Assembly (NCBI GenBank): GCA_017645645.1
Contig: JAGCOB010000013.1
Location: forward strand, 1 to 55,828
Origin: Prevotella sp.
GTDB lineage: Bacteria > Bacteroidota > Bacteroidia > Bacteroidales > Bacteroidaceae
Direction of reading: 5' to 3'
Length of the DNA stretch: 55,828 nt
How positions within the stretch are numbered: the first letter of the stretch is position 1; every line of letters begins with the position of its first letter. The position numbers and the translations under genes are program-made. Shown here piece by piece: positions 849 to 45,603 of this stretch. Under the pieces are notes generated by a model, which was not told where the DNA came from, did not search any database, and worked only from the letters and a program-made list of their open reading frames with translations.

Positions 849-922
849 GGTCCCGTAGCTCAGCTGAATAGAGCGTCAGATTCCGGTTCTGAAGGTCTTG
901 GGTTTGAATCCCAACGGGATCA
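849..922 (+). tRNA. tRNA-Arg (anticodon CCG)
   Basis: A full cloverleaf can be folded. The acceptor is GGTCCCG with CGGGATC (one G-U pair), the D arm is GCTC/GAGC, the anticodon stem is TCAGA/TCTGA around the loop TTCCGGT, and the T arm is TTGGG/CCCAA. The anticodon CCG reads arginine CGG. The 3' CCA is not encoded. The next reading frame starts 26 bases downstream. Confidence 0.95.
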
Positions 923-935
923 CTATTATATTAGT

Positions 936-942
936 AAGGAGG
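936..942 (+). promoter_or_regulatory. Strong Shine-Dalgarno AAGGAGG deciding the BKACE gene start
   Basis: A perfect AAGGAGG six bases before ATG 949. Neighbouring genes in this window generally lack such a site. It fixes the start downstream of the tRNA rather than at the upstream TTG at 898. Confidence 0.75.
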
Positions 943-948
943 ATACCT

Positions 949-1776
949 ATGAGAAAAATTATTGTGACCGTGGCACCTGTCTGTCACGTTGGCAAGGAGA
1001 TTCCTGCCGAATGCAAAAACCCGCTCACGCCAGAGGAGATAGCCGAAGACACCATCAACTGTTACAAAGCAGGAGCCTGTGAGGTACACCTCCATACCCG
1101 TGATTTGCAAGGTAATCCCACTTTTGAACTGGACGTGTTCCGCCAAACCATTGGACTGATCCGTAAAGAGACGGATATGATCATCCAAGGATCAACGGGC
1201 GGACTGTCAACCCTTTCCCTTGCCCAGCGGTGTGTCAGTCTTGACGTTCCAGAAGTAGAGGTCGCCTCCCTGAACATGGGCAGTGTGAACTTCGGGGAGA
1301 CGGTATATGTCAACACCATGCCTGACCTGCGCTACTGGGCAAAACGGTTGGACGAGACCAATACCGTCCCTGAGATGGAACTTTTCGACCTGAGTCATGT
1401 GGAATGCGCCACTCGTCTTGCCGACGAGGGAGTCATCCACCGTCCCCTGCATTATAATTTCTGTGTGGGACCCGGCAACTCCTCGAACCTTTCCGCCACC
1501 GGACGTAACCTCGCCATGCTGACCAGTCTGATGGAGCCTGGCACCTCCTGGGGTATCACCCATGACTCGATGAAAGACTTCTCCATCCTGGCCTGTGCCA
1601 TCGGCATGGGAGCATCTGTCGTACGTGTCGGTTTTGAGGACAGTTTCTATTATGCACCAGGCAAACGTGCCCATACCAATGCAGAACTCGTGGAGAAACT
1701 CGTTGCCCTTATCCGCATGATGGGGTGTGAACCAGCCACCCCTGCAGAAGCAAGGGAAATGCAACATATCAAGTAA
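949..1776 (+). CDS. BKACE-family beta-keto acid cleavage enzyme (DUF849, Kce-like)
   Basis: A 275-residue TIM-barrel protein of the BKACE (DUF849) family, whose members condense a beta-keto acid with acetyl-CoA to give acetoacetate and a new acyl-CoA. The metal-binding EVHLHTRD (His47, His49), the N-terminal ITVAPxG-like strand and the late VGFED (the Glu ligand) are present, and length is normal. I chose ATG 949 because a strong AAGGAGG lies six bases upstream (936-942); the frame is open further up, but that part overlaps tRNA-Arg. It is the first gene of a four-gene set, and the next gene starts within two bases of its stop. Substrate is unknown: family members act on 3-keto-5-aminohexanoate, dehydrocarnitine, 3-oxoadipate and others. 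The strong Shine-Dalgarno is unusual for this phylum. Confidence 0.88.
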   Translation: MRKIIVTVAPVCHVGKEIPAECKNPLTPEEIAEDTINCYKAGACEVHLHTRDLQGNPTFELDVFRQTIGLIRKETDMIIQGSTGGLSTLSLAQRCVSLDVPEVEVASLNMGSVNFGETVYVNTMPDLRYWAKRLDETNTVPEMELFDLSHVECATRLADEGVIHRPLHYNFCVGPGNSSNLSATGRNLAMLTSLMEPGTSWGITHDSMKDFSILACAIGMGASVVRVGFEDSFYYAPGKRAHTNAELVEKLVALIRMMGCEPATPAEAREMQHIK

Positions 1777-1777
1777 G

Positions 1778-2983
1778 ATGGAAGAAGTAAGATGGAAGAT
1801 GGTTGTCTTAGACGACGACCCCACAGGAATCCAGACAGTACATGGATGTCTGCTTGTCACCCAATGGGATGAGGAACATGTACGGCTGGGCTTTGAGGAC
1901 GCAGCACCTTTCTTCTATATCCTGACCAATACCCGGGCAATGACCCGTGAAGAGGCTGCCCGTGTTACAAGGGAAGCTATGGAGACCGTGGTAAGAGTCA
2001 ACGAGCATTTCGGTTACCGTCTCATCATTGTCAGTAGGAGTGACTCCTGTCTGCGTGGACATTTCCCTTTGGAAACCGATGTGATGCGTACTGTACTGCA
2101 TGAACATGGGGAGACCGTATTCCACCAAACACCGTTCTGTCCTGCCTTTATTGAGGCGGGACGCATTACAATAGACGGGATCCATTATATGAAAGACGGT
2201 GGGAAATTGATTCCCGTCAGTGATACCGAGTTTGCCCGCGATAACGTATTCGCCTATCACACCAGTGTGCTGACAGACTATATCCGTGAGAAAGGAGCAG
2301 ACCCCGACGACTATATCATCGTGAATGCACAGGGCTATGACGAGTTACGAGCCTTTGCCAAGACGATTCTCTGTGAGGAGTCCACTGAACATGTCATCAT
2401 CCGGAGCAGTTCGTCACTCCCCAAGGCTATTGCGGGAATCCCCGACAAGCCGTTACTTGACCGTTCCATCCTGAAACAAGCAAGTGTGGGTTGTTTTGTC
2501 GTGGGTAGTCATGTCAAGAAGACCACCTTGCAACTAGAACAACTGTTACAAGCTGAAGGCACCTGTGCCATTGAAGTAGATGTACAACGTATCTTAGATG
2601 ATGCAGAGGCATTGGCCCTGGAGACGACAGACACCATCCGACAGATCGTGGAGAACCACTTGACACCCGTCGTCTATACCTCCCGTCAGGAAATCCGACT
2701 GGACGATGCCAACCAGCGTCAGCATTTAGGACAGCAAGTCTCAGACTTCCTGGTTGACATCGTACGTAACCTGCCCTTCACCCCTTCCTACCTCGTAGGA
2801 AAAGGAGGTATCACCTCCCACGATATCCTGACCAAGGGACTGGGCATCAAAACGGCTCGTGTACTGGGACAGATTATCAATAGTGTGCCCTGTGTGATGG
2901 CACACGATTTTCCTTATATTATTTTCCCCGGCAATGTGGGCAATGAAAGATCGCTCAGAGATGTCTATGAGAAGTTAGCATGA
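1778..2983 (+). CDS. Four-carbon acid sugar kinase family protein (DUF1537/OtnK-like)
   Basis: A kinase of the DUF1537 family, which phosphorylates four-carbon acid sugars such as erythronate, threonate or 3-oxo-isoapionate with ATP. Family marks are the N-terminal MVVLDDDPTGIQTVHG, the SRSDSCLRGHFPLE segment and the C-terminal nucleotide-binding VGKGGITSHDILTKGLG. About 401 residues from ATG 1778, near the family's usual 400-430; ATG 1799 is an equally plausible start and leaves the first strand intact. It follows the BKACE gene directly and overlaps the next gene by four bases, so it is co-translated with it. Family assignment is strong; the true substrate is unknown and need not be a tetronate. 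Confidence 0.87.
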   Translation: MEEVRWKMVVLDDDPTGIQTVHGCLLVTQWDEEHVRLGFEDAAPFFYILTNTRAMTREEAARVTREAMETVVRVNEHFGYRLIIVSRSDSCLRGHFPLETDVMRTVLHEHGETVFHQTPFCPAFIEAGRITIDGIHYMKDGGKLIPVSDTEFARDNVFAYHTSVLTDYIREKGADPDDYIIVNAQGYDELRAFAKTILCEESTEHVIIRSSSSLPKAIAGIPDKPLLDRSILKQASVGCFVVGSHVKKTTLQLEQLLQAEGTCAIEVDVQRILDDAEALALETTDTIRQIVENHLTPVVYTSRQEIRLDDANQRQHLGQQVSDFLVDIVRNLPFTPSYLVGKGGITSHDILTKGLGIKTARVLGQIINSVPCVMAHDFPYIIFPGNVGNERSLRDVYEKLA

Positions 2984-3978
2984 AGCAGAATATGAAGCAA
3001 TGGGTGGCTGACACCATCCAACAGAAAGAGGTAACAGCAGTGCCTGTGATGACCCATCCGGGCATCGAACTGAACGGACATACGGTAAGGGAGGCTGTGA
3101 GTAATGGCAAGGTACATGCCGAGGCAGTGACCAAACTGGCAAGAACGTACAAATGTGCGGCAGCCTGTACCATCATGGACCTGACCACGGAGGCAGAAGC
3201 CTTCGGAGCAGAGATCGCCTTCTCAGATATTGCCGTACCAGCTGTTATCGGTCATATCCTGACCGATGTCAAGAGCATCCATGACCTACAGGTGCCATCC
3301 CTCAAGACTGGTCGTATCCCCCAGTATCTGAAAGCCAATCTGTTGGCTGCAAGAGCCATTCAGGACCGTCCTGTATTCAGCGGATGCATCGGTCCCTTCT
3401 CCCTGGCAGGAAGACTCTATGACATGTCAGAGATCATGGTACTGATCTATGAGCATCCAGAGGCTGCCCATACCTTATTAGAAAAATGTACGGAGTTTAT
3501 CGGGAAATACTGTCTGGCACTGAAGCAAACCGGTGCCAATGGAGTGATGATGGCGGAACCTGCCGCCGGACTGTTGTCCAATGACGACTGCATGACATTC
3601 TCCTCGCAATATGTCAAGCGTATCGTGGAGAAAGTGCAAGATGAAAACTTTATCGTCATTCTTCATAATTGCGGTAATACGGGACACTGTACCAAGGCGA
3701 TGGTTGCAACAGGTGCCGCAGCCTACCATTTCGGTAACAAATGCCAGATGGAGGAGGTCATCAAGGAGGTACCTCCTACGGCTCTTGCCATGGGGAACAT
3801 CGACCCCGTCTCCCTATTCAAGGATGGTACCCCAGAAGAGATGAGACAGGCAGTAGGTAACCTGTTGGAAAAGATGAGGAACTATCCGAATTTCGTCCTC
3901 TCCAGCGGTTGTGACACCCCACCCCATACGCCCCTCGCTAATATTGACGCTTTCTTTGACGCTATCACGACCAGGTGA
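2980..3978 (+). CDS. UroD-like / MtaA-type corrinoid methyltransferase with zinc motif
   Basis: A 332-residue protein of the uroporphyrinogen decarboxylase superfamily, closest in pattern to methylcobamide:thiol methyltransferases (MtaA/MtbA). The zinc triad of that subgroup is present: His229-x-Cys231 in LHNCGNTG and Cys311 in SSGCDTPPHTPLANI. True UroD enzymes lack this His-x-Cys...Cys set, so heme synthesis is unlikely. It should move a methyl group between a corrinoid protein and a thiol, or prepare a methylated substrate for the corrinoid. It overlaps its neighbours by four bases on each side. The only corrinoid protein in the window is the fusion encoded at 4643-7474, the likely partner. 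A second ATG at 2992 is possible. Confidence 0.82.
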   Translation: MKQNMKQWVADTIQQKEVTAVPVMTHPGIELNGHTVREAVSNGKVHAEAVTKLARTYKCAAACTIMDLTTEAEAFGAEIAFSDIAVPAVIGHILTDVKSIHDLQVPSLKTGRIPQYLKANLLAARAIQDRPVFSGCIGPFSLAGRLYDMSEIMVLIYEHPEAAHTLLEKCTEFIGKYCLALKQTGANGVMMAEPAAGLLSNDDCMTFSSQYVKRIVEKVQDENFIVILHNCGNTGHCTKAMVATGAAAYHFGNKCQMEEVIKEVPPTALAMGNIDPVSLFKDGTPEEMRQAVGNLLEKMRNYPNFVLSSGCDTPPHTPLANIDAFFDAITTR

Positions 3979-4628
3979 CACAGAAAATACTGACATACGA
4001 AGAACTTGGAATCACAGATGCCGACCTCTATGAGCAGATGGGCTATCATGGTCTGTTGCCTGATGAAAAGACACAAGCGGAAGCGGCTGCCATCATCCGT
4101 CATGTACGTACCATCATCCGTCCCCAATTCTGTTTCTTCGTGGCCCGTGAGCTACCTGCCTTTGACATGGGGAGAATCATCCTGCGACAATTAAGGGACA
4201 GTGAGGCATACGCCCTGTTTATCTGTACTGCCGGTCAGTTGTTTGAACAATACCAACAGCAGTTAAAGACTGAAGGTGACATGGTACGTATATTCATCGC
4301 CGATGCCTTAGGCAGTGTGATTGCCGAGAAATGCGCTGACAAGATGGAGGAGAGCCTGCAGGAGTCGATTGACAAACTGGGGTGGAAACATACCAATCGC
4401 TTCTCACCAGGATACTGCGGATGGCATGTGTCCCAACAGCAACTACTCTTTTCTTTGTTTGAGGGAAAGACATGCGGTGTCACACTGACAGACTCATCAC
4501 TGATGGTCCCCATTAAGAGTGTCAGCGGCATCATCGGTATAGGTGAAAAAGTCCGCAGATTAGACTATACCTGCGGACTCTGTGATTTTAAACAATGCTA
4601 TAAGCGGAAAAAGGCTGTTAGCCCTTAG
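3975..4628 (+). CDS. Stand-alone methionine-synthase activation domain protein
   Basis: A 217-residue protein matching the C-terminal reactivation domain of cobalamin-dependent methionine synthase, which binds S-adenosylmethionine and helps re-methylate oxidised cob(II)alamin. The signature segments are RFSPGYCGW (142-150) and SLMVPIKSVSGI (175-186), in the expected order and spacing. The protein ends with a Cys-x2-Cys-x4-Cys motif (Cys200, 203, 208), as in other stand-alone members and unlike MetH itself. It starts at a GTG overlapping the previous stop by four bases (GTGA). It is the last gene of the plus-strand set and faces the gene for the corrinoid fusion, which has no activation domain; the two probably work together. 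Confidence 0.85.
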   Translation: MTQKILTYEELGITDADLYEQMGYHGLLPDEKTQAEAAAIIRHVRTIIRPQFCFFVARELPAFDMGRIILRQLRDSEAYALFICTAGQLFEQYQQQLKTEGDMVRIFIADALGSVIAEKCADKMEESLQESIDKLGWKHTNRFSPGYCGWHVSQQQLLFSLFEGKTCGVTLTDSSLMVPIKSVSGIIGIGEKVRRLDYTCGLCDFKQCYKRKKAVSP

Positions 4629-4646
4629 CTTTTAGCTATTAGCTAT
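4625..4646. repeat. Short tandem repeat TTAGCT(A) between convergent genes
   Basis: Imperfect copies of TTAGCTA/TTAGCTT fill the 14-bp gap between the two convergent gene sets and run slightly into both gene ends. It has weak hairpin potential (TTAGCT/AGCTAA). No proper terminator is seen here. Confidence 0.6.
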
Positions 4647-7474
4647 AATTTCCCAAGTAGTTGTTTGGCGACTGTCACTGCCGAGTTGGCATTGTCACTA
4701 TAGCCATCGGCACCTATCTCATCAGCAAAGCCCTGTGTGACAGGGGCTCCACCCACCATCACCTTCACCCGATCACGGATACCTGCCTTTTCCAGGGCAT
4801 CTATCACCTCCTTCATATAACCCATGGTCGTTGTGAGCAATGCCGACATACAGAGAATGTCAGGCTGGTTCTCCTTGACAGCTTCGATAAATCGGTCGGC
4901 AGAGACATCAATACCGATGTTCACCACTTCAAAGCCACAACCCTCCAACATCGAGGCCACCAGGTTCTTACCGATATCATGCAGGTCGCCTTTCACCGTC
5001 CCTATCACCACCTTACCCATCGAAGTAGAAGCATTACCGGCAAGCATGGGCTTCAACAATTCCAACGCTGCCTTCATAGCACGTCCTGCCATTAACAACT
5101 GAGGGACGAAAGCCTTGCCATCCTGGAAGCGCTGTCCCACCTCCCCCATGGCACGGATCATCTGACCGTTAATCAGATCCTGTGGGGCAATATTCTGGGC
5201 AATGGCCTCTCGAGTGGCAGAGGCAGCTTCCTCACTCTTGCCATCGAGGATGGCTTGGAAGAGACGGTCAGCGGGAGTTGCGGGGGAAGGTGTAGTTTCT
5301 ATAGGAGCTATAGGTACTATAGGAACTATAGGGGTTATAGTTTGGGAAGTAGTTAGGGGCGAGAGGAAGAGTCCGGGAATAGGTTCAATGGCCTGAGCCA
5401 TCATTCGGATATGTGCATCGGTAGTGCCACAACATCCTCCCAGGATATTCAGGCAATGGTTCTCTAGCAGAGGCCAGAGATCAGCCACCAGACTCTCGGG
5501 CGACTTCTGATACCGTCCATTACTATCAGGCATGCCTGCATTGGGATAGAGGCTCACCTTCAGACCCATTGATGCCAGTTGACACACAAGAGGTGTCATC
5601 TTGGGAACATCTGCCACGCAGTTGATACCGATAGAAAAAAGGTCGTCTTTATGGAGGTGAGCAATAAAATCGATGATACTCTGTCCCAGCATGTTATGTC
5701 CATCGGGAGTGGCTACGGAGAAACTGAGCATGAGGGGCAGAGAAGGAGCCACCTCCCTGGCGACCTTTATGGCAATCTCCGCAATGCGGACATCGAAGAT
5801 TGTCTCAATCAGCAGAGCATCCACCCCTCCATCCACTAATGCCTGTATCTGTTCATGATAAGCTTCTTTCAGAGCGGTAGCAAATTTTTCTCTGTTCTCA
5901 TCCCCTTCCTCACTTATAAAAGTGCGACTAGTAGGACCGATACTGCCTGCCACAAAGCGCGGCTTGTCCGAGGAGGAAAACGCATCGGCACACTCACGGG
6001 CCAGACGGGCTGCAGCAAGGTTGATTTCCCTGCCATATTCTGCCAAGCCATAGTCGCCCAAGGAGATACGCTGGGCATTGAACGTATTCGTCTCAATGAT
6101 ATCAGAACCTGCCTCAAGGTATTTCCGATGGATATCACGGATTACAGATGGACAGGTCAGCGAGAGCACATCATTACAGCCTTTCAAATCATAGGGATGT
6201 CCTGCAAACAGACTCCCCCGAAAATCCTCTTCACGAAGTTGACACTGCTGGATCATCGTACCCATGGCACCATCAAGGAGAAGGATCCTTTTGAATGGAG
6301 TACGGAGCATAGAGCATGGAGCATTTGCAACCTCTGTCCTACGCTCTTCACGCTCCACTATCCGGATGATTTCCTCCACTTCACGGTCAGCCTCATCTTT
6401 GTTTTGATATTCCTCGATGATACGCATGGCCTGTTCCACCTCCCGTTCATTGTGGAAGTCCATCTCCAAGTGTACGCCATCACCACCGATATGATCGAGC
6501 AGGGGTTTCAATTCGTCGAGGGTCACCCAACAAGCCATGATGCTCTTTCCTGCGTCAAGAATCCTCCTGTAGAGGTCATACCACTTGGGAGAGCCACCCT
6601 GAGGTTCACCGACACCAGGTGTCCACTGGATGGCATTCAGTTCCTTGATTTCCAGCAAAGCATCAAGATGGTGCATGGCCCCCACTCCGTCAAGATGATA
6701 CAAGGTATAGTCTATCTTCTGACACTGTTCACGGATGAACGGCTGTACAAAGCGCCGGTAGTCATCCACACTGATCATTGTCGAAATATCACTCTGCAGT
6801 TTCGACATCTTACCTGGTGCCCAACTGGAGAAATAACAGAACGCCATCTCATCACCCTCGCGGATAATGTCATACAATTCGTCGAACACCTGGAAATAGA
6901 TATCGTTGATCTGTTGCATCTGGTGTTCAAGTACCTCAGGCTGCATCACGGTGTCAAGCAACACCTTATCCGTACCCTTTATAGCCGCCAACACATCGAG
7001 GCCCTCCATCAGGTCGGGCATGCCCACATAATAATGTCCCTGAGCCTTCGCTTTGCAAGCCCGTAACAGTTCTTTATGCAGGAGATAGTTCGGATGGTTA
7101 GGGTCGAACACGATATCATCGGTATAGTTGGGATTGGGATGGATCCAGATCGTATCCTCTCCACCTTCGAACACACCACCCAGGATAGCAGCCAGAGAGC
7201 CAGGTCCCAACTGGGTATTGGCTACCGGCAACATATCCGCCATCAGGGAGGAATGTGCCACGTACCAGTCTAAGTATTCTGCACGCCACTGGGGGTCGAA
7301 CCATTTCTGATTCAAGTCCTTTGGAGGCTTTGGTGCCGGTATATCGGCATGAGGAGTCACCCCTTCCTGGAAATGCTCCCACATATTCAGGACAATACCT
7401 TTATGATTCCACCAGTCGACATATCTGCGCTTGGTCTCTTCCAGATTCGGTTTCCATGTATTCATCATAATCAT
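4643..7474 (-). CDS. Fusion: UroD-like methyltransferase + homocysteine S-methyltransferase + corrinoid (B12) domain
   Basis: A 943-residue three-part enzyme. Residues 1-360 are a UroD-like methyltransferase without the His-x-Cys zinc pair (YHLDGVGAMHH occupies that place). Residues 396-695 are a homocysteine methyltransferase like that of MetH, with LLDGAMGTMIQQ and the zinc ligands Cys619 (GINC) and Cys681-Cys682 (GGCCGT). After a Pro/Ile-rich linker (708-732) come a B12 cap helix domain (733-812) and a B12 Rossmann domain (820-943) with the base-off motif D830-L-H-D-I-G835, His832 being the cobalt ligand. MetH's folate-binding and activation domains are absent. Inference: methyl groups from an unknown donor pass to cobalt at the UroD module and then to homocysteine, giving methionine without methyl-folate. 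Start codons at 7474, 7468 or 7465 are possible. Downstream of the MFS gene (gap 8 bp). Confidence 0.88.
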   Translation of the reverse strand: MIMMNTWKPNLEETKRRYVDWWNHKGIVLNMWEHFQEGVTPHADIPAPKPPKDLNQKWFDPQWRAEYLDWYVAHSSLMADMLPVANTQLGPGSLAAILGGVFEGGEDTIWIHPNPNYTDDIVFDPNHPNYLLHKELLRACKAKAQGHYYVGMPDLMEGLDVLAAIKGTDKVLLDTVMQPEVLEHQMQQINDIYFQVFDELYDIIREGDEMAFCYFSSWAPGKMSKLQSDISTMISVDDYRRFVQPFIREQCQKIDYTLYHLDGVGAMHHLDALLEIKELNAIQWTPGVGEPQGGSPKWYDLYRRILDAGKSIMACWVTLDELKPLLDHIGGDGVHLEMDFHNEREVEQAMRIIEEYQNKDEADREVEEIIRIVEREERRTEVANAPCSMLRTPFKRILLLDGAMGTMIQQCQLREEDFRGSLFAGHPYDLKGCNDVLSLTCPSVIRDIHRKYLEAGSDIIETNTFNAQRISLGDYGLAEYGREINLAAARLARECADAFSSSDKPRFVAGSIGPTSRTFISEEGDENREKFATALKEAYHEQIQALVDGGVDALLIETIFDVRIAEIAIKVAREVAPSLPLMLSFSVATPDGHNMLGQSIIDFIAHLHKDDLFSIGINCVADVPKMTPLVCQLASMGLKVSLYPNAGMPDSNGRYQKSPESLVADLWPLLENHCLNILGGCCGTTDAHIRMMAQAIEPIPGLFLSPLTTSQTITPIVPIVPIAPIETTPSPATPADRLFQAILDGKSEEAASATREAIAQNIAPQDLINGQMIRAMGEVGQRFQDGKAFVPQLLMAGRAMKAALELLKPMLAGNASTSMGKVVIGTVKGDLHDIGKNLVASMLEGCGFEVVNIGIDVSADRFIEAVKENQPDILCMSALLTTTMGYMKEVIDALEKAGIRDRVKVMVGGAPVTQGFADEIGADGYSDNANSAVTVAKQLLGKL
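5298..5340. repeat. 9-bp in-frame tandem repeat in the linker of the methyltransferase fusion
   Basis: Four to five copies of CCTATAGNN (minus strand) encode successive Pro-Ile-Val/Ala/Glu triplets in the linker between the homocysteine methyltransferase and B12 domains. The same core (CTATAGG) forms the intergenic repeat at 8692-8729. Confidence 0.85.
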
Positions 7475-7482
7475 TTACAGAT

Positions 7483-8691
7483 TTACGTTTTGATGATTGG
7501 CTTTTCGGGATTGATAAAAGCAAAAAGTACGGCACTCACCAGAAGCATCACGGCAATCATGTACAGGGGCAGATTATAGTTGCCAGACTGCTGCACCAGT
7601 TCACCAAAAAAGATACCACAGCAGAAGCCTCCGATATTACCTGCCGTATTCATAGCCCCACTAATGGTACCGGCATGACGCTTACCTAAGTCGATGCATA
7701 ATGCCCATGCCGAAGGCAACATTAAATCGAAGATACCAAAACAAAGGGACAAAAACACAAATACTGCCATCTTGCCGGGAATGAATGCCGCCAAGAACAT
7801 ACAGACTGCTGACACCGTCAACGAGGTGGAGCCCAATGCCTTGCGACCTATCTTGATACCATACTTCTGTGTGAGTTTGTCTGTCAGGTGCCCTCCGGCA
7901 ATATTACCAATCATACTCATGATAAAGGGAACAGCGACAGCATAGGTCAGTTCTGTCTTGTCAAAGCCCCTGCCCAGTTCCATAAAGGTAGGAAACCAAG
8001 AGAAGAAAAACCACGACCCAAAGGCATAGAAGAAATACATGCCACAGATAAGCCAGAACTGTCTATTACCGAAAAGAAGACTCCAACTCAGGCTTGTTTC
8101 TCTAGATTCTATAGATACTCTAAAATCACCAGAGTCACTAGAGTCCCTGTAATACCAATACCATATCACTGCCCATACCACTCCCAAGGCTCCCAAGAGA
8201 TAGAAGGCAGCACGCCAGCCTACCCACATCATCACGGGTATCACCACAAAAGGAGTGAGGGCACCGCCCATACGACTGGCCGCCCATACATAGCCCTGTG
8301 CCTTGCCTACCTCGCTCTTCTCAAACCAGCGACTAATCACTCCTGTGGAACAGGGTGACGAACCAGCCTCACCGATACCGAACATAAAACGGATTACCAG
8401 CAGTGATGCCAATCCTCCTGCCAGACCTGTAAAGGCGGTGAATGCAGACCACCATAACACGATAGCGGCGAGTATCTTCCGATGTCCAAAATGATCACCC
8501 AGTGCACCCATCGGAATCTGCATCAGTCCATAACTGAGGATAAAAGCACTCTGTACCCATCCCCATTGCGACGGACTCAATTCCAGGTCGTGCATGATGC
8601 TCGACCCCGCTACACTGATATTGATACGGTCCAGAAAGGTCACCATGCCCAGAATGACGAGCATAGCAAGGATTACATTCTTTCTTTTCAT
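7483..8691 (-). CDS. MFS transporter, anion:cation symporter (ACS) type
   Basis: A 402-residue inner-membrane carrier with twelve predicted helices. The first-helix motif FLDRINISVAGS and the loop GALGDHFGHRK mark the ACS branch of the major facilitator superfamily, whose members (hexuronate, glucarate, tartrate, phthalate carriers) import organic acids with a cation. The central loop after helix 6 holds a 9-bp in-frame repeat coding for Asp/Glu-Ser-x triplets. It lies between the racemase-like and fusion genes on the same strand, so it probably brings in the substrate of this block. Substrate is not deducible from sequence. Confidence 0.85.
   Translation of the reverse strand: MKRKNVILAMLVILGMVTFLDRINISVAGSSIMHDLELSPSQWGWVQSAFILSYGLMQIPMGALGDHFGHRKILAAIVLWWSAFTAFTGLAGGLASLLVIRFMFGIGEAGSSPCSTGVISRWFEKSEVGKAQGYVWAASRMGGALTPFVVIPVMMWVGWRAAFYLLGALGVVWAVIWYWYYRDSSDSGDFRVSIESRETSLSWSLLFGNRQFWLICGMYFFYAFGSWFFFSWFPTFMELGRGFDKTELTYAVAVPFIMSMIGNIAGGHLTDKLTQKYGIKIGRKALGSTSLTVSAVCMFLAAFIPGKMAVFVFLSLCFGIFDLMLPSAWALCIDLGKRHAGTISGAMNTAGNIGGFCCGIFFGELVQQSGNYNLPLYMIAVMLLVSAVLFAFINPEKPIIKT
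8101..8150. repeat. 9-bp in-frame tandem repeat in the central loop of the MFS carrier
   Basis: Read on the minus strand, about five three-codon units of the type GACTCTAGT, GACTCTGGT, GATTTTAGA, GTATCTATA, GAATCTAGA encode the acidic/serine loop between the two six-helix halves. Confidence 0.75.
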
Positions 8692-8729
8692 AGATTGATA
8701 GGGGCTATAAGGACTATAGGAGCTATAGA
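8692..8729. repeat. Short tandem repeat GGACTATA/GGAGCTATA in intergenic gap
   Basis: Three to four degenerate copies of a 9-bp CTATAGGNN unit lie between the racemase-like gene and the MFS gene, running slightly into the end of the former. The core is the same as in the coding repeat at 5298-5340. Confidence 0.7.
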
Positions 8730-9382
8730 CCCAGGAATTTTCTCAATCCCTTGACACCAAGAACAGGACTGCTGAGTACGGGCATCCCCGTCAGTTCAGA
8801 CAGATGCCGCTCCATCCGGGCCATCGAACCCTGAGCCAGCACAAACATATCCACTTGTGAGGCAATACGCTGTGCCGCCTCAGCAATCAAGCGGTCATGG
8901 GTCTCCCCGTCCCCACTCTGTCCTGCCGCAAAGGCACCGTCGGCAAGTCCTTCTACCAGCGTCACCTCTCTGCCAGCCTTCTTAGCCTCATTGAGCAACA
9001 ACCTGCAGGTGGGATCAAGTGTCGTAGGCAAAGTAGATATCACACCAATACGATTGTAGTTCCTGACAGCCTCAGCCGCCATGGGCTGGTCAATACGGAA
9101 CACGGGAATACGGGCATACGTGTTCCCATAGTCTGCGATGTCACCTACTGACGAGCAGGTATTGAACACCACATCGGCCCCTGCGTCTGCTGCCGCATTG
9201 TAATACGACAGCAGCCTGCGTCTCACTGCCGGTGTCACTGCATTATTAGCAATCACCTCTTTAATGAGTGAGGAGTCAGCGATATGGTTGACCTCCACCT
9301 CTGGCAAATACTCCTTGAAAATCCCTGTCAACGGCTCCACTAAAGCCATTGCCGTATGTACACACATTACTCTTTTCTTCAT
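8723..9382 (-). CDS. Asp/Glu/hydantoin racemase superfamily protein lacking the second cysteine
   Basis: A 219-residue protein of the aspartate/glutamate/hydantoin racemase fold, normally a two-cysteine enzyme working by proton transfer at an acidic carbon. The first catalytic cysteine is present (Cys76 in FNTCSSVGD). The second, usually in a GCTH-type segment, is replaced: FVLAQGSMARM has no Cys. One-cysteine relatives include arylmalonate decarboxylase, so decarboxylation or another carbanion reaction is possible instead of racemisation. It is the first gene of the minus-strand set with its own promoter box at 9420-9413. Family is clear, activity is not. Confidence 0.82.
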   Translation of the reverse strand: MKKRVMCVHTAMALVEPLTGIFKEYLPEVEVNHIADSSLIKEVIANNAVTPAVRRRLLSYYNAAADAGADVVFNTCSSVGDIADYGNTYARIPVFRIDQPMAAEAVRNYNRIGVISTLPTTLDPTCRLLLNEAKKAGREVTLVEGLADGAFAAGQSGDGETHDRLIAEAAQRIASQVDMFVLAQGSMARMERHLSELTGMPVLSSPVLGVKGLRKFLGL

Positions 9383-44106: not shown

Positions 44107-45603
44107 TTATGCGAAAGGATTCTCTGTGGGATAGAAATCACCCTTCGGGAAGTTGTAGTCGATCTCGTCCACGGGGATGCCCATGTACTTGAGAACCTCC
44201 CACAGGTACTTGCCCTGATGACCGAACATGACGGCGCAGTGGTGTGGGTAGTGCTTCTCGATGAGAACGTGACGATAGAAGCGGCTCATGTTCTTGATAC
44301 CGAAAATACCGATAGAACCGAATGAACGGGTAGCTACAGGAATAACCTCGCCCTGAGCGATGTAAGCGCGAAGCTTGGTGTCGGCTGTTGACTGCAGACG
44401 ATAAACAGTAGCCAAACCAGGCTGGATGTCACCCTCGAGGGTACCGTTGGTAACCTCAACAGGCAGAGCGCGGGCCATGATGCGCTGGAAGCACATCTGG
44501 CAGTTGCAAACCTTACTAGAAGCAGTATTACCACAATGGAAGCCCATGAAGATTTCCTTCTCGGTATAGCTGTCGCAAGCGAACTTCTTGCCCTTGATGC
44601 TCTCCTCGAACATATCCTGAGGAACGGTGTTGTTGATGTCGAGCAGGGTAACGGCATCCTGAGAGATGCAGGTTCCAATGTACTCTGACAGAGCGCCATA
44701 GATGTCAACCTCGCAAGCTACGGGGATGCCACGGGCGGTCAGACGGCTGTTCACATAGCAGGGAACGAAACCGAACATGGTCTGGAAAGCAGGCCAGCAC
44801 TTGTTAGCCATAGCCACGAACTGACGAGAGCCCTTGTGAGCCTCAATCCAGTCGGTCAGCGTCAACTCATACTGGGCAAGCTTAGGCAGCACCTGAGGAA
44901 TCTTGTTGCCGTGACCGAGCTCAGCAGCCATATCCTTCACAACGTCGTCGATACGTGGATCGCCCTGGTGCTTCTGGAAAGCCTCAAGCAGGTCGAGTTC
45001 TGAGTTCTCCTCAATCTCAACATCGAGATCATACAGAGCACGGATAGGAGCATTACAAGCCAGAAAGTTGTTAGGACGGGGACCGAAGCTGATAATCTTC
45101 AGATTCTGCAGACCGACGATGGCACGTGCGATGGGCAGGAACTCATGAATCATCTCAGCACACTGGGCAGCGTCGCCAACGGGCTCCTCAGGAATGTAAG
45201 CACGGGTCTTACGCAGAGAAAGAGCCTGGCTGGCATTCAGCATACCGCAGTAAGCATCTCCACGACCGTCAATCAGGTCCTTCTGAGTCTCCTCAGCAGC
45301 AGCAATAAACATAGAAGGACCCTTGAACCAGTCGGCAATCATAGTTTCGGAAATCTCAGGACCGAAGTTGCCAAGATAAACGCACAGTGCGTTACAGCCG
45401 GCCTTCTCGATGTCAGCGAGAGCCTGCTGAGCATGAATCTCACTCTCAACGATACAGATAGGACACTCGTAAATGCCTTCCTTACCGAACTTCTTCTCAT
45501 ACTCAGCGATAACAGCCTTACGACGGTTAACAGCCAATGACTCGGGGAAACAGTCGCGACTTACGGCGACAATACCGATCTTAATTACAGGTACATTTTT
45601 CAT
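44107..45603 (-). CDS. L-fucose/L-arabinose isomerase family protein
   Basis: A 498-residue protein of the fucose/arabinose isomerase superfamily. The N-terminal Rossmann-like domains begin KIGIVAVSRDCFPESLA and contain CLYLGNFGPE-type sequence (LCVYLGNFGPE); the C-terminal part has CEVDIYGALSEYIG, the metal-site Glu/Asp in LLDINNT, and MGFHCGNT with the conserved His. It interconverts an aldose and its ketose, the exact sugar being uncertain. No other sugar genes are adjacent. It has its own promoter (45655-45648). Confidence 0.85.
   Translation of the reverse strand: MKNVPVIKIGIVAVSRDCFPESLAVNRRKAVIAEYEKKFGKEGIYECPICIVESEIHAQQALADIEKAGCNALCVYLGNFGPEISETMIADWFKGPSMFIAAAEETQKDLIDGRGDAYCGMLNASQALSLRKTRAYIPEEPVGDAAQCAEMIHEFLPIARAIVGLQNLKIISFGPRPNNFLACNAPIRALYDLDVEIEENSELDLLEAFQKHQGDPRIDDVVKDMAAELGHGNKIPQVLPKLAQYELTLTDWIEAHKGSRQFVAMANKCWPAFQTMFGFVPCYVNSRLTARGIPVACEVDIYGALSEYIGTCISQDAVTLLDINNTVPQDMFEESIKGKKFACDSYTEKEIFMGFHCGNTASSKVCNCQMCFQRIMARALPVEVTNGTLEGDIQPGLATVYRLQSTADTKLRAYIAQGEVIPVATRSFGSIGIFGIKNMSRFYRHVLIEKHYPHHCAVMFGHQGKYLWEVLKYMGIPVDEIDYNFPKGDFYPTENPFA

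Follow-up and report, generated by a model that had tools for sequence, protein, structure and literature searches.

What do seven genes of a Prevotella sp. contig accomplish that bring together corrinoid methyl-transfer proteins and a homologue of the beta-keto acid cleavage enzyme (BKACE), and do they act as one pathway? The genes belong to contig JAGCOB010000013.1 (GCA_017645645.1), analyzed over its whole length of 55,828 nucleotides (the window), which is contig 12 of a genome that is 64% complete. A sequence-only reading had assigned domains to these genes and proposed a single route, in which a methylated organic acid is imported, its methyl group passes to cobalt and then to homocysteine, and the remaining acid is processed by the other enzymes. 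All seven genes, with those domains and at those places, were recovered in the open reading frame (ORF) list and in the Pfam and NCBIfam scans of the window. The genes form two units: (i) a methyl-transfer core, comprising the fusion protein Fus, the methyltransferase UroD2 and the activation protein Act, and (ii) a separable cassette of BKACE, a DUF1537 kinase, a major facilitator superfamily (MFS) carrier and an Asp/Glu racemase homologue (Table 1). We consider it probable that the core is a corrinoid-dependent sugar O-demethylase that feeds methionine synthesis, with 2-O-methyl-xylose as the methyl donor.

Domains and motifs of the core proteins

The corrinoid motif DLHDIG is present in all 81 aligned copies of Fus, and at least 98% of these copies keep GxNC and GGCCGT, the zinc motifs of the homocysteine methyltransferase domain. 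The corrinoid carrier part of Fus is related to MtgC/MtbC (PF02310/PF02607). Together with the genomes described below that possess Fus and lack methylenetetrahydrofolate reductase (MTHFR), these motifs support, at the level of sequence, the proposed passage of methyl to cobalt and then to homocysteine. The pterin-binding folate domain had no Pfam match across the 943 residues of Fus at an E-value of 0.001.

The first domain of Fus, UroDN, has no match in Pfam or NCBIfam, none in a PDB profile search up to E 10 and none by hhalign, where the profiles were shallow. On these grounds UroDN was rejected as a UroD detectable by sequence, and its UroD fold is visible only in the predicted structure. 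With this fold UroDN counts as a donor-side enzyme of the UroD superfamily, a component by which corrinoid-dependent O-demethylase systems are recognized.

UroD2 carries an invariant HxC...C motif (15 of 15 aligned sequences), which we take to be the MtaA-type zinc triad. Its score with the MtaA/CmuA model TIGR01463 is 140.1 bits, which is below the cut-off of 235.4 and thus below the subfamily threshold. No cluster in which the domains of Fus are encoded separately was seen to contain both a gene for homocysteine methyltransferase (L123, L169) and one for UroD2 (L122, L171, L173). This pattern fits the probable role of UroD2 as an alternative enzyme on the acceptor side.

Neighbours of the core, proposed methyl donor and methionine supply

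Loci with Fus were found in Prevotella and its relatives, mostly from the rumen, and the best 80 of the 111 found were compared, with cluster members counted within each fetched stretch, some of which are cut short by contig ends. Act is present in 48 and UroD2 in 44 of the 80 loci, and the neighbouring genes include GH141 (40 loci), GH31 (38 loci) and an SSS symporter (37 loci). At least one of these three neighbours occurs in 46 loci, and all three in 29. Further neighbours are GH127, GH106, GH78 and BT1020-like enzymes, fucose isomerase, and a dihydrodipicolinate synthase (DHDPS)-type aldolase. Records of Prevotella sp. tf2-5 and tc2-28 and of Marseilla massiliensis An824 also carry the cluster.

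UroDN matches were identified in 15 of 393 genomes of the order, the window genome included. Six genomes from six other families possess unfused UroDN genes with 57-62% identity (L169-L174), accompanied by the symporter in all six, by GH31 in four and by a GH141 homologue in three; the two loci that lack GH31 are contigs under 7 kb. In four of the six loci there are separate genes for at least one of the corrinoid protein, Act, homocysteine methyltransferase and UroD2, and an unfused arrangement of this kind also occurs within the genus, in L122 and L123. The parts are fused in some genomes and separate yet clustered in others, and are therefore well supported as acting jointly.

Two of the unfused genes, in two families, are adjoined by similar predicted oxidoreductases of 349 and 354 aa (L169:10130-11179 and L170:8610-9674). 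Distant UroDN homologues (26-28%) were observed at L176:9243-10337, L177:6303-7403 and L178:2768-3850, the first beside GH106- and GH78-like genes and the other two beside RhaT-type rhamnose transporters. These homologues are possibly demethylases for other methylated sugars.

The GH141 proteins of the Fus loci match BT1002 (5mqp) with an E-value of 1.5e-96 and apparently keep two catalytic Asp residues that align with D523 and D564, assuming an offset of five between chain and published numbering. According to the excerpted text of PMC10154630, the characterized GH141 BT1002 frees 2-O-methyl-D-xylose-alpha1,3-L-fucose from rhamnogalacturonan II (RG-II). Bacteroides thetaiotaomicron, as described in the part of PMC7939467 consulted, cuts 21 of 22 RG-II linkages and spares 2-O-Me-Xyl-alpha1,3-Fuc, so that this disaccharide accumulates. 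The GH31 protein matches 5f7c over nearly its full length. By eye, GH141 has a signal peptide and GH31 has no evident one. Adjoining genes would thus provide a complete route for the disaccharide, with GH141 secreted, an importer, an alpha-glycosidase in the cytosol and a methyltransferase of the corrinoid type.

From these genes, motifs and neighbourhoods we infer the substrate, the direction of methyl flow and each activity of the following route. Secreted GH141 would free 2-O-methyl-D-xylose-alpha1,3-L-fucose from side chain A of RG-II, the sodium symporter would take it up, and cytosolic GH31 would split it. UroDN would then transfer the methyl group from 2-O-methyl-xylose to cobalt(I) in the corrinoid domain, from which the homocysteine methyltransferase domain would hand it to homocysteine, yielding methionine and leaving xylose free, and Act would rescue inactive cobalt(II), as in MetH. 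In the window genome this route would draw on GH141, GH31 and symporter genes encoded on another contig, the core itself being located inside the BKACE cassette.

The association was further assessed in 299 genomes of the genus using Fisher tests. The set of 80 genomes with Fus was compiled by hand from a match list that stopped at weak matches; fragments at contig ends and two unfused copies (G054, G160) are part of it, and GH31 was counted at E <= 1e-150. GH31 is present in 81 of the 299 genomes, namely in 74 of 80 with Fus and 7 of 219 without it (six genomes have Fus alone and 212 neither; p 3.5e-54). The BT1020-type propeller, which we take as a marker of RG-II use, was matched in 109 genomes, about ten of the matches being in shorter ORFs of 607-625 aa. 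Fus and this marker occur together in 74 genomes (p 1.9e-35).

Since 74 of the 80 genomes with Fus have the RG-II marker, one can also suppose that a different compound of RG-II or pectin supplies the methyl group to the core, either 2-O-methyl-L-fucose of chain B or methanol of methyl esters, and that GH141, GH31 and the symporter adjoin it through a shared role in RG-II use. Fucose isomerase adjoins Fus in G125, in G144 and in five Prevotella loci and fits such a donor, but is compatible with both readings, because fucose is the other half of the GH141 disaccharide. However, the tie to GH31 persists within the 109 marker-positive genomes (both 69, Fus alone 5, GH31 alone 7, neither 28; p 1.2e-14), and GH31 and the symporter adjoin unfused UroDN in other families. 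We thus regard another RG-II donor as unlikely and retain 2-O-methyl-xylose.

Genes of methionine synthesis were compared in 40 genomes, hand-picked rather than random, of which 23 possess Fus. In G060, G125 and G144, which are 98-99% complete, neither MTHFR nor any homocysteine methyltransferase besides Fus was found, and the sole activation protein found is of the short Act type. Likewise, MTHFR and a further homocysteine methyltransferase were not found in the window genome, at its 64% completeness. These genomes bear on the idea that Fus is an auxiliary methionine synthase using methyl-folate, in which the UroD-fold domain stands in for the folate domain, as in the UroD-like MetE. A folate-dependent Fus is thought unlikely given the missing folate domain and the three genomes that carry Fus without MTHFR; it would also leave the tie to GH31, the symporter and RG-II genes unexplained, and we give it scarcely any credence.

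Several observations weigh against a sugar demethylase that supplies methionine from 2-O-methyl-xylose. The co-occurrence statistics ignore the shared descent of genomes. No listed sugar-related gene is present in the fetched stretch of 27 of the 80 loci, in some of them through contig ends, and six Fus genomes lack a GH31 match; five of these are 56-81% complete, but G097 is 94% complete. The closest solved relative of GH31, 5f7c, is named only an alpha-glucosidase, and we infer from context that GH31 cuts 2-O-Me-Xyl-alpha1,3-Fuc. As fucose isomerase adjoins some loci, the methylated sugar could be 2-O-Me-xylose, 2-O-Me-fucose or both. On the methionine side, 19 of the 23 Fus carriers also possess another homocysteine methyltransferase and MTHFR, therefore Fus is usually not the sole route, and G060, G125 and G144 may be one lineage. 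MetE is missing from nearly all 40 genomes (weak matches in two), hence its absence carries little weight. MetA is present in G060, G125 and G144, but it is also kept by 5 of 10 genomes that lack both MTHFR and a full-length homocysteine methyltransferase, and was thus rejected as proof of methionine synthesis. With these points included, we lean, by a modest margin over even chances, towards the broader view that UroDN is an undescribed family of B12-dependent sugar O-demethylases, that it fills the missing step of RG-II breakdown, and that in at least one lineage (G060, G125, G144) the plant cell wall, and not folate, is the source of the methyl group in methionine.

The BKACE cassette and the changed position of the core

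The motifs of BKACE are canonical, HxH and GFED being retained in an alignment to 2y7d, and the protein scores 244.9 bits with PF05853 against a cut-off of 24.8; four NCBIfam models that match it all score below cut-off. The SBD_N and NBD_C domains of the DUF1537 kinase are both above cut-off. Asp/Glu racemases presumably have two active-site cysteines; the homologue keeps one site (NTCSS), the other (LAQGSMARME) being without Cys, and it had no match among PDB sequences up to E 0.1.

The genomic evidence concerning a single pathway is divided. Such a pathway, with the MFS carrier importing a methylated carboxylate, the core demethylating it, and DUF1537, the racemase homologue and BKACE processing the acid, is suggested by the seven genes standing together in the window and in L002 and L059, the only 2 of the 80 related loci with a complete cassette beside Fus. 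The two gene sets also share genomes, whereas their never occurring together had been named by the sequence-only reading as grounds for abandoning a single pathway. Specifically, Fus is present in 33 of 35 BKACE genomes (p 1.4e-19), the two exceptions being fragments, and in all 32 with full-length BKACE. The 35 genomes include fragmentary or broken copies (G035, G082, G245) and exclude matches of 36-37% (G085, G141, G286).

On the other hand, 47 of the 80 Fus genomes lack BKACE. Outside the genus BKACE is present in only 2 of 9 UroDN genomes, both from one family with the fused form, and in none of the other seven, among them all six genomes from other families with unfused UroDN. The two sets are mostly located apart: core genes are missing from the fetched stretch in 18 of 19 BKACE loci of the genus (L102-L120), the exception being L111, where UroD2 and Act are inserted and Fus is elsewhere in the genome. 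This count includes L102, a second, degraded copy in the window genome, and excludes L121, where BKACE is 36% identical. Moreover, UroDN appears about equally conserved in both contexts, its similarity to the window copy being 0.99 in L002 and 0.93 in L059, versus 0.81-0.94 (most 0.88-0.94) in GH141/GH31 loci. Based on the separate loci, the equal conservation of UroDN and the BKACE-free genomes outside the genus, we rejected a single pathway as the leading explanation and hold it to be very improbable.

An organic acid handled by BKACE, DUF1537 and the racemase homologue likewise gains no support from the company of UroDN outside the genus, which is GH31, the symporter and often GH141. The sequence-only reading apparently had the right chemistry, but probably mistook a place of insertion for a pathway and was wrong about the acid substrate and the single route. 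BKACE genomes possess the BT1020-type marker in 33 of 35 cases, and among marker-positive genomes BKACE is found in 32 of 74 with Fus and in 1 of 35 without. The link between cassette and Fus therefore probably runs through RG-II, as two RG-II sugar modules rather than one linear pathway.

The core has changed position. On contig 24 of the window genome GH106, a sialate-esterase-like gene (SIAE), DUF5703-GH78, GH141, GH31 and SSS stand in a row, with a BT1020-type gene some 20 kb away. Seven relatives (L005, L009, L012, L013, L062, L063, L070) have Fus-Act-UroD2 between DUF5703-GH78 and GH141, whereas on contig 24 only 3 bases separate DUF5703-GH78 from GH141, and the 40 kb read contained none of the core genes. 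Fus occurs once in the window genome, between DUF1537 and MFS of the cassette. The core has thus moved between the RG-II row and the BKACE cassette, and the direction into the cassette is presumed.

In L076, BKACE and DUF1537 are some 6-8 kb from the core. In L056, a short MFS piece (residues 368-402, at 8531-8645) and a BKACE piece (residues 1-25, from 13145) flank the methyl core and look as if a cassette had decayed around it. The second BKACE copy of the window genome (L102; contig 8, 1-20000) is 93% identical. The racemase gene beside it appears to be frameshifted and the MFS gene is incomplete, and genes for a split transketolase, a fucose-isomerase-like protein, a DHDPS-type protein and a symporter are nearby.

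Cassette genes stand alongside split transketolase and a fucose-isomerase-like protein in L113, L115 and L102, and one or two of these loci add FGGY kinase, DHDPS-type aldolase, symporter or iron alcohol dehydrogenase. In L017 and L081, Fus directly follows a transketolase and FGGY kinase set like that of the cassette loci. Split transketolase with a sugar kinase presumably resembles the apiose pathway. Because of these neighbours, the cassette is probably a separate catabolic unit for an acidic RG-II sugar, and its substrate may be guessed, with low confidence, as aceric acid or Dha. Elsewhere in the window, a 498-aa protein at 44107-45603 (-) is fucose/arabinose isomerase-like by eye and is away from other sugar genes.

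Table 1. Features of the analyzed interval of the window
Feature	Unit	Position	Strand	Remarks
tRNA-Arg (ccg)	outside the system	849..923	+	opens the interval
BKACE homologue	cassette	949..1776	+	PF05853 E 1.3e-72
DUF1537 kinase	cassette	1778..2983	+	PF07005 + PF17042; start codon picked by eye within ORF
UroD2, MtaA-like UroD-family methyltransferase with zinc triad	core	2980..3978	+	PF01208 E 1.1e-61
Act, stand-alone MetH-type activation protein	core	3975..4628	+	PF02965 E 3.3e-14
Fus, 943-aa fusion of UroDN, homocysteine methyltransferase and corrinoid domain	core	4643..7474	-	
UroDN, putative methyl-ether donor domain (Fus residues 5-365)	core	6380..7462	-	UroD fold in predicted model
Homocysteine S-methyltransferase domain (Fus residues 398-696)	core	5387..6283	-	PF02574 E 7.5e-83
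Corrinoid domain (Fus residues 735-933)	core	4676..5272	-	PF02607 + PF02310; DLHDIG motif
MFS carrier, organic-anion (galactonate-like) kind	cassette	7483..8691	-	PF07690 E 5.3e-62; TIGR00893 219 bits, below cut-off 395
Asp/Glu racemase homologue, one of two cysteine sites	cassette	8723..9382	-	PF01177 E 9.4e-16

Comparison with known systems

No report of corrinoid demethylation of methylated sugars was recognized in the open-licence literature, judged by titles and abstract openings among the matches listed. A donor family outside Pfam, a predicted sugar-ether substrate and homocysteine as the putative acceptor would make this a new form of corrinoid demethylation. The clusters name candidate genes both for the missing RG-II step and for the ether demethylation itself. 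If the proposed route is true, corrinoid demethylation extends to carbohydrates, and fibre breakdown is tied to methionine supply and B12 need; for the near-complete Fus genomes that lack MTHFR, a methionine methyl group of folate-independent origin is predicted.

The corrinoid O-demethylases of acetogens and Desulfitobacterium, as far as the excerpt of PMC3727330 describes them, show the transfer of an ether methyl to cobalt and on to an acceptor that is proposed for the core, and a donor enzyme, corrinoid carrier, acceptor enzyme and reactivation protein are present in both. The core differs from them in its predicted sugar-ether donor, in homocysteine instead of tetrahydrofolate as acceptor, in the fusion of three parts and in MetH-type reactivation. 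It resembles MetH in its homocysteine and cobalamin domains and its activation-domain homologue. Unlike MetH, it has no folate-domain match, possesses an added UroD-fold domain and encodes the activation domain as a separate gene, and in 19 of 23 Fus carriers it coexists with another homocysteine methyltransferase. UroD2 belongs to the same superfamily as MtaA/MtbA and the mlp-cluster methyltransferases (Kountz and Balskus, PMC10418091, in part) and keeps the zinc triad, but falls below the MtaA/CmuA cut-off; the terms carbohydrate, sugar and Bacteroid are absent from the available text of that article. Finally, the RG-II degradome of B. thetaiotaomicron, as covered by excerpts of PMC7939467, PMC10154630 and PMC12282258, includes GH141, GH106, GH127, GH78 and BT1020-type genes that are also found near Fus. 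In contrast to B. thetaiotaomicron, which according to these excerpts spares 2-O-Me-Xyl-alpha1,3-Fuc, the Fus bacteria add GH31, the symporter and the methyl core.

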